DNA of 33,796 nt, taken from the NCBI GenBank assembly GCA_026417075.1, contig JAOADY010000089.1:1-33796 (forward strand). The letters are read 5' to 3'. The position numbers and the translations under genes were made by a program. The notes under the pieces are model-generated. The model was not told the DNA's origin. It made no database searches and saw nothing but the letters and a program-made list of their open reading frames with translations. Positions 26,370-28,682 of this stretch are shown in pieces (within the stretch, counting starts at the first letter, position 1; the number at the start of each line of letters is the position of its first letter). This DNA comes from Caloramator sp. (GTDB lineage Bacteria; Bacillota; Clostridia; Clostridiales; Caloramatoraceae).

Positions 26370-28505
26370 TTATATATTAAATAAAAGTTCTCCATAGGTT
26401 GGAATTGGCCACAGCTTTTCATCAACTATTGTTTCAAGCTTATCAGCATCTTCTCTTAAAGATTGCATCGCTGTAAATACTTTATCCTTATAAAAGCATG
26501 CTTTTTCATAAATGTTTTCTTCGATTTCTGATGCTTGTAAATTCGTATTTTCAAGCACATCAATATTATTTTTGAAAGAAGCTAAAACCTTTGATAATTC
26601 GCATAAAAGTTCTTCTTGAACACTAATATCAACTACAATGCCTGTATTTTTTATCTCATTAATTGTTTTTGCTATATCTCCTATAAATCTAATAGTTGCA
26701 GGAAGTATCTGCCTTTTTGCTATATCAAGCATAGTTAAAGCTTCAATATTTATCTGTTTTATATAGGATTCAAGCAATATTTCATATCTTGAATATAGTT
26801 CATCTCTGCTCAATACATTATGTTTTTCAAAAAGTTCAATGGCCTTATCTGTTATAAGGGCTTTTGAAGCCTCTACTGTCGATTTAATATTAGCAAGTCC
26901 TCTTCTTTCTGCTTCTAAAATCCAATCATTAGAATATCCGTCTCCATTGAATATAATTCTATTATGATTGTTAACTATATCCTTTAAAATGTTTTCAACT
27001 TCAACGTTAAAATCCTCCGCTTTTTCAAGTCTATCTGCTATTTCTTTTAGACTTTCTGCAACAATTGTGTTTAATACTGTATTGGCATCTGCAATAGATG
27101 CTGATGATGGAACCATTCTGAATTCAAACTTGTTTCCTGTAAAGGCAAAGGGCGATGTTCTATTTCTATCTGTTATGTCCTTATGAAGTTTTGGAAGAGT
27201 AGTAACTCCTATTTTAAGTTCTTCCTTTTGCTTTACAGCCTTTGCTTCTACTCCATTTCCAAGTTGCTTCAAAATTTCTGTAAGCTGTTCTCCAAGAAAA
27301 ATTGAAAGTATTGCCGGTGGTGCTTCATTTGCTCCAAGTCTGTGGTCATTTCCAGGATTTGCTGCGGATACTCTAAGTAAATCAGAATATTCATCTATTG
27401 ATTTAATAACCGCACATAAGAATACTAAAAACTGTGCATTTTCATGGGGTGTTTTCCCTGGAGCTAATAGATTTTGTCCATCATCTGTACTTAAAGACCA
27501 GTTATTATGCTTTCCCGAACCATTTACCCCGGCAAAGGGCTTTTCATGTAAAAGGCATATAAGATTATGCCTATTTGCAACCTTTTTTAATGTATCCATA
27601 ACTATCTGATTATGATCAGTTGCAGTATTAGCATCTGTGTATATAGTTGCTATTTCATGCTGAGCAGGAGCAACTTCATTATGCTTTGTTTTTGCTGATA
27701 CTCCAAGTTTCCAAAGTTCTATATCAAGTTCTCTCATAAAGGATGCAATTCTTTCTTTAATACTTCCATAATAATGATCCTCAAGCTCCTGACCCTTTGG
27801 TGGTTTTGAACCAAACAGAGTTCTTCCTGCAAACACCAAATCCTTCCTTTGATTGTAAAGTTCTCTGTCAATAATAAAATATTCCTGCTCCGCACCTACC
27901 GTTGGAATAACTCGTTTTGCTGTTGTGTTCCCAAAAAGCCTTAAAACTCTTAATGCCTGTTTTGATAATGCTTCCATTGAGCGAAGCAGAGGTGTTTTTT
28001 TATCAAGGGCTTCGCCTGTATAGGAACAAAATGCGGTCGGTATATAAAGAGTTACCCCTCCCTCATCTTCTTTTAAAAAGGCTGGTGAAGTACAATCCCA
28101 CACTGTATAGCCTCTTGCTTCAAAAGTTGCCCTAAGTCCTCCAGATGGGAAAGATGAGGCATCGGATTCTCCTTTTATAAGTTCTTTCCCTGAAAATTCA
28201 GTTATAGCTTTTCCATCTGATGTTGGAGATATAAAGGAGTCATGCTTTTCTGCCGTAACCCCATTTAACGGTTGAAACCAATGGGTATAATGAGTAGCCC
28301 CTTTTTCAATCGCCCAATCCTTCATAGCATTTGCAACAACCTCAGCTACATTAGCTTCAAGAGGTAATCCTAGTTCAATAGTTCTTTTTAATGCTTTATA
28401 GGTTTCCTTTGGTAGTCTTTCTCTCATAACAGAATCGTTAAATACATTAGCACCAAAAACCTCTGAAATAGTTAATTTATAACATGATTCACTTTTCATA
28501 TACAT
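26370..28505 (-). CDS. glnN: Type III glutamine synthetase
   Basis: 711 aa; [85 protein letters not shown]. Confidence 0.96.
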
Positions 28506-28514
28506 ATCCTCCCT

Positions 28515-28565
28515 AAAAAAAGATAAAGCGCCCTAAAAACATATACTTTATGTTCTTAGAAGCGC
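28515..28565 (-). terminator. Leader terminator upstream of glnN
   Basis: Minus strand GCGCU(U)CUAAGAACAUA-AAGUA-UAUGUUUUUAGGGCGC followed by UUUAUCUUUUUUU, directly before the GGGAGGA RBS. Confidence 0.75.
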
Positions 28566-28574
28566 CGTTGCTTC
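28559..28574 (-). promoter_or_regulatory. ANTAR-like antiterminator hairpin (hexaloop A1/G4) overlapping the glnN leader terminator
   Basis: Minus strand GAAGC-AACGGC-GCUUC; the 3' arm overlaps the 5' arm of the terminator, so the two folds are mutually exclusive. Confidence 0.45.
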
Positions 28575-28682
28575 AAAATTGATTCAATTATATTATTATA
28601 GTAATAGTATATTACAAAAAAAGCAATATGTTTTTGTTAAAAAAGTGTTAATTGTTTTATTTTTTTGCTAATCTTAAATAAA

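Follow-up and report, generated by a model that had tools for sequence, protein, structure and literature searches.

What controls glnN, the type III glutamine synthetase gene of a Caloramator genome, whose leader carries one hairpin of the kind bound by ANTAR antiterminators overlapping a terminator, and where is the second hairpin that such a target is expected to have? The classical ANTAR target is a dual hexaloop, and in Enterococcus faecalis deletion or mutation of the first hairpin (P1) impairs control, both hairpins having been found necessary (PMC3369931). A later catalogue of ANTAR RNAs demanded two stems separated by a linker of 2-25 nt (PMC8164766). Published catalogues that admit only paired stem-loops joined by a short linker would have missed or misdrawn leaders with a single hexaloop. 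From the structure of EutV with RNA it was argued that the minimal site consists of a single hexaloop, and that paper calls for bioinformatic and experimental work on single sites (PMC8934654). Control of glutamine synthetase (GS) and GOGAT genes by ANTAR/NitR proteins is already known: NitR of C. saccharobutylicum is reported to induce them on nitrogen limitation (PMC6316151, citing Stutz et al. 2007). The original prediction drew on the link between clostridial GS genes and NitR-type ANTAR regulators.

The window (the whole stretch of 33,796 nucleotides that was analysed) encodes glnN on its minus strand (26370..28505, ATG at 28505; 711 residues with GSIII_N, Gln-synt_C and Gln-synt_C-ter in Pfam). 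On that strand the 5' leader reads UAUAAUUGAAUCAAUUUU-GAAGC-AACGGC-GCUUC-UAAGAACAUAAAGUAUAUGUUUUUAGGGCGC-UUUAUCUUUUUUU-AGGGAGGAUAUGUAUAUG. The putative antiterminator hairpin, P2 (28559..28574), has the stem GAAGC/GCUUC and a loop at 28569-28564 with A1 at 28569 and G4 at 28566; its sequence and coordinates are as originally predicted. The terminator stem-loop (28527..28566) begins at G4, its first stem base, and shares loop positions 4-6 and the 3' arm with P2. It stands immediately 5' of the glnN ribosome binding site, AGGGAGGA (28507..28514), with the U-tract UUAUCUUUUUUU (28515..28526) between them, the last two features being read from the sequence. All lie on the minus strand, as does the predicted promoter (28598..28626), a weak pair of TTGCTT (28626-28621) and TACTAT (28603-28598) with a 17-nt spacer that was placed by eye, by analogy with the TTGCAA-17-TATAAT of family relatives. 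This weak promoter sets the predicted +1 near 28591, 17 nt 5' of P2; the promoter script chose a different pair in this genus, and a generic promoter scan returned none at the window glnN site. Over the window, no Rfam cis-regulatory family matched at its gathering score, the best sub-threshold match under relaxed thresholds being rli56 (22.4 of 47 bits, E 0.12).

Folding supports the claim that hairpin and terminator exclude each other. The 81-nt leader folds at -21.4 kcal/mol (z = -4.7 versus dinucleotide shuffles, 0/200 equally good), and the two structures are mutually exclusive, the P2 3' arm being common to both. When growing prefixes are folded, P2 appears first, and the terminator takes over near nt 66. 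Alone, P2 amounts to -4.9 kcal/mol versus -19.1 kcal/mol for the terminator; being weak by comparison, P2 would require help to win, as an antiterminator should. Folding was used here instead of a gapless terminator test, which overlooked the window site on account of a bulge.

Terminators 5' of genes can be simple barriers, and a P2 of so little stability might be a by-product of the 5' arm of an ordinary terminator that merely limits read-through. The alignment contradicts this explanation. Across 36 aligned leaders the P2 helix has 96.7% paired cells and a covariation of 0.707 versus 0.234 in shuffles (0/500), and the terminator helix reaches 0.626 versus 0.284 (0/500); both stand well over shuffled and slid controls. 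In one state, columns 13-17 of the alignment have columns 2-6 as their partners; in the other, their partners are columns 63-71. The P2 5' arm takes no part in the terminator, and its covariation with the 3' arm therefore reveals selection on P2 itself. The combination of hexaloop and terminator is also rare in shuffled leaders (1/345 and 8/1640), and in many species the element is preceded by a predicted promoter and followed by glnN. We regard the plain terminator as an extremely remote explanation.

Orthologous leaders retain the loop, within the genus as well as across the order and in distant Clostridia, an outcome in favor of the original prediction. Two other species of the genus have an identical P2 stem with the loop AACGGC or AAUGGC, and GAAGC-AAYGGC-GCUUC occurs with 0 mismatches once per genome in all three species and nowhere else there. 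In 82 element-bearing glnN leaders from the order and more distant Clostridia, P2 stems are diverse and the loop stays near AANGGM, a conservation that is partly by construction, as the first hexaloop detectors had fixed loop letters. A rerun with the loop unconstrained was therefore made: terminator-overlapped loops of 6 nt occur in 74/148 leaders versus 11 after shuffling, compared with 15-40 leaders versus 7-19 for other loop sizes, and A1 and G4 are present together in 60 of 83 terminator-overlapped 6-nt loops of unconstrained sequence. Some Lachnospiraceae leaders have G at loop position 1 and retain G4. This fits the EutV-RNA structure, where base-specific contact is confined to G4 and A1 is believed to give the loop its form (PMC8934654).

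The distribution of the element follows that of ANTAR genes, among genomes as among genera. In the distant set, an ANTAR gene is present in 27/27 genomes first scored as hexaloop-positive versus 16/23 others; among the latter, L002 has the element on closer inspection and no ANTAR match. Within the order, glnN is present in 69/166 genomes, and the element in 50/59 glnN leaders of ANTAR genomes versus 1/10 elsewhere (p = 7e-6, a value weakened, like the other p-value given here, because the genomes are related and not independent samples, which leaves the glnA-nitR and own-genome matches below unaffected). G207 combines an element-bearing leader with no ANTAR gene detected in the genome. Nine ANTAR genomes have a glnN leader without a script-detected element; inspection shows that the script overlooked it in at least two (G098, G171). 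A covariance model built from glnN leaders, with no glnA-nitR leader in its training set, has matches in 70/103 ANTAR genomes of the order versus 4/63 without an ANTAR gene (166 genomes), and in 20/30 ANTAR genera versus 0/14 others (genera counted by hand). The 102 model matches at E up to about 0.008 comprise 39 glnN leaders and 63 other sites, 30 of which lie on the same strand as an ANTAR gene and 0.5-4 kb upstream of it, that is, at glnA-nitR. Within its genome the window site alone gives a good match (46.5 bits at E 3e-6, the runner-up having E 3.5), and a model of glnN leaders made without its own genus still recovers it at 39.7 bits (E 2.4e-6), the next best score in the window being 13.9.

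In Clostridium the two GS loci can be neighbors: glnA-nitR, gltB, gltD and glnN form one cluster in L251 and L252, and glnA-nitR and glnN are divergent in L249 and L253. Several such clustered or divergent loci carry hexaloop-terminators 5' of glnA and of glnN. More single-hexaloop terminators, which are further matches of the covariance model, stand before genes for a molybdopterin-dehydrogenase FAD subunit (L287:1501-1556), an amino-acid permease (L293:1501-1548) and eutA (L299:52-100); judged by sequence, these sites would make up a wider nitrogen regulon in Clostridium.

The caveat that no ANTAR gene lies in the window holds. The draft genome, 86% complete, has exactly one above the Pfam cut-off, on another contig (C86:1456-2022, equal to L082:1456-2022), directly behind the gene for a type-I GS (glnA, C86:112-1446) at a distance of 9 nt. 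Its product is a NitR-like REC-ANTAR protein of 188 residues that resembles Rv1626 and EutV among solved structures and keeps EutV R142, K143, K147, K149, E160, Y164, R168 and M172, the RNA-contact residues being taken from PMC8934654. With one recognisable target and one ANTAR protein, NitR acting on glnN is the simplest reading, and this sole REC-ANTAR gene, together with the co-occurrence of element and ANTAR genes across the order, supports the ANTAR assignment made from the window.

The leader of the genome's own glnA-nitR operon was checked for the hexaloop element and has none. In G002 a transposase-like sequence lies directly 5' of glnA-nitR (L089, about 1-1000), and the start of contig C86 (L082:1-60) is near-identical to that stretch (CTCCTTYGGAGG...AACTCAAAGG); in both genomes, inserted sequence may have taken the place of the glnA leader. 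Downstream of glnA-nitR, members of this family have a TusA/DsrE-domain gene and a gene for a putative Se/S carrier (L082:2054-2982; L255, L256).

Binding of NitR to P2 being a prediction, the hairpin might instead be an antiterminator whose reader is a metabolite, an antisense RNA or some RNA-binding protein other than ANTAR. In C. saccharobutylicum, GS is reported to be under the control of an antisense RNA (PMC6316151), and the replacement of A1 by G in some Lachnospiraceae would suit such a reader. Against this stand the emergence of hexaloop size and A1/G4 from the unconstrained test, the joint distribution of element and ANTAR genes, and the many genomes that have the element at the very operon encoding the ANTAR protein; no riboswitch family matches, and the element is too small for a typical metabolite aptamer. 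We consider a non-ANTAR reader very unlikely.

The second hairpin is a separate matter. As originally cautioned, the window has no canonical P1: the sole candidate, AAUUGAAUCAAUU (28577..28589, minus strand), has a pentaloop or triloop and not an A1/G4 hexaloop, and its pairing is weaker in the sister species G001 and G002. Using a linker-limited test with a control set (an A1/G4 hexaloop on a stem of >=4 bp, <=20 nt upstream), we found P1 in only 2/82 glnN leaders, leaving 80/82 without it, and at 0/12 AANGG sites of the glnA-nitR loci examined (two of the 12 are glnN leaders already counted). In contrast, the same detector found P1 in 13/15 hexaloop-terminator sites near ANTAR genes of the same order that are not GS-linked (p = 2e-12); in control sites L304-L307, L310 and L311 P1 is plain to see, gtac-AATGAA-gtac being one instance, and its linker measures 2-15 nt. 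This 4-bp test replaced a 3-bp criterion, which was dropped after scoring 14/52 leaders versus 15% of shuffled ones, mostly within promoters. As P1 is missing from nearly all GS-linked leaders but present in most control sites, its absence in the window is not local decay. Furthermore, about 20 leaders have a near-consensus promoter whose predicted +1 lies 0-4 nt 5' of P2; with transcript starts so placed, P1 would fall outside the transcript.

These results bear on the possibility that the leader is a canonical dual-hexaloop target with a P1 that escapes recognition because it is weak or degenerate, represented by AAUUGAAUCAAUU here or, in certain Clostridium leaders, by segments resembling UUA(AUUGAA)UAA. 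An AAUURAAU-like stretch does recur 5' of P2, an A1/G4 hexaloop on a 3-bp stem can be traced in a few copies, and EutV requires both hairpins (PMC3369931). The difference between glnN leaders and control sites under one detector, the predicted starts just before P2 and a 3-bp form about as frequent as expected from shuffled leaders all argue the other way, and a cryptic P1 is in our view improbable. The glnN leader appears, from comparison of sequences, to be a single-hexaloop ANTAR attenuator, a form common to GS-linked leaders across Clostridia. One A1/G4 hexaloop and its co-occurrence with ANTAR genes fit the minimal single-hexaloop motif of PMC8934654, with binding as a prediction.

Two observations concern the region upstream of P2. 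The AAUURAAU-like stretch is found in this genus (28577-28589 in the window) and in several Clostridium leaders, the leaders concerned including those of G115, G123, G141, G176 and G146; it may be a P1 relic, part of a promoter or an AT-rich chance occurrence. In Sarcina ventriculi (the L009 leader, with a second copy in G195) there is a second A/G4 hexaloop on a 9-bp stem, TAATATTTC-AAAGGT-GAAATATTA, located ~63 nt 5' of P2 and thus beyond the usual P1 distance.

The reading we prefer, and hold to be probable as a whole, is that the glnN leader is a transcription attenuator under a NitR-type ANTAR antiterminator that uses one hexaloop, not two. It adjusts the original prediction in one respect: the target would be a single-hexaloop form and not a dual motif with an overlooked P1. 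By default, as the fold and its covariation suggest, the leader RNA would form the terminator and glnN would not be transcribed. Under nitrogen limitation, the signal suggested by known NitR biology, NitR would bind the P2 hexaloop as it emerges, mainly via G4. By retaining G4 and the P2 3' arm, the bound protein would block the terminator and let RNA polymerase enter glnN; we infer this direction of control, as we do the binding. No P1 recruitment hairpin would be used, and in many relatives P2 would lie within a few nt of the predicted transcript 5' end. The need of EutV for both hairpins counts against this reading, in that a single hexaloop might not suffice (PMC3369931).

The receiver domain of NitR bears on how such a regulator could be controlled. 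Here D9, D54 and K104 are kept, N10 and L82 are present and the switch T/S is lost, so that the protein lacks the intact receiver (acidic pair, phospho-Asp, T/S, Lys) of phosphorelay ANTARs of the EutVW type. Among ANTAR loci of related genomes (L122-L151, L180-L209) and the own one (L082:1456-2022), 46 of 60 examined directly follow a type-I GS gene. The full phosphorylation set is found in 0/46 of these GS-linked ANTARs versus 12/14 ANTARs not adjoining GS, and the phospho-Asp is retained in 3/46; receivers of the own family are intermediate, with D54 and K104 kept and the switch T/S lost. K149, E160 and M172 are kept in 46/46, and in most of the 46 Y164 is changed to F or H and R168 to Q or E. 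GS-linked ANTARs thus look, by their residues, to be mostly pseudo-receivers. AmiR is a non-phosphorylated pseudo-receiver controlled by AmiC (PMC3369936, PMC3369931), and the constant gene neighbor makes the type-I GS a candidate partner of NitR, by gene order. We tentatively propose, as a possibility that is rather less likely than not to hold in full, that GS-linked ANTARs form a distinct kinase-free branch of antiterminators, in which a decayed receiver would sense nitrogen via contact with the co-encoded type-I GS, the target would be one hexaloop at the transcript 5' end, and a single protein-hairpin contact would suffice.

Set beside known systems, the proposed switch shares with the eut leaders of Enterococcus faecalis (PMC3369931, PMC8934654) an A1/G4 hexaloop hairpin that shares sequence with the upstream arm of an intrinsic terminator, and with EutV a REC-ANTAR protein with the same RNA-contact residues. 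It differs in that the glnN leader has one hexaloop and no P1, and in that the regulator adjoins a type-I GS with no kinase gene and has a partly decayed receiver. As for NitR of C. saccharobutylicum, an ANTAR gene directly behind a type-I GS, nitrogen-assimilation targets and antitermination (here predicted) are common to both; the present genome differs in that its recognisable target, glnN, lies on a separate contig from nitR and its glnA-nitR leader lacks the element. In AmiR/AmiC of Pseudomonas and in NasT/NasS, a receiver-like domain of an ANTAR protein is under the control of a partner protein. Most GS-linked ANTARs appear to have a non-phosphorylated pseudo-receiver like that of AmiR (PMC3369936); unlike in both of those systems, the partner here, the type-I GS, is only a candidate. 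The dual stem-loop ANTAR RNAs of Firmicutes and Actinobacteria likewise stand 5' of nitrogen genes, including glutamine synthetase, and have A1/G4 hexaloops (PMC8164766, PMC3369931). Within the literature accessible to our search, we found no account of single-hexaloop leaders as the rule for GS-linked ANTARs, of a hairpin position at the transcript 5' end or of the correspondence of these features with decayed receivers; a partial earlier description is possible.

The clostridial glnN and glnA-nitR leaders provide a large, conserved natural set of single-hexaloop sites, and because the predicted transcript start often lies at the hairpin itself, the need for P1 becomes directly testable. The decayed receivers suggest that no kinase may be needed to convey nitrogen status to NitR. 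The pairing of an intact receiver with a dual hexaloop, versus a decayed receiver with a single one, offers a handle on why one branch of ANTAR proteins needs two hairpins.
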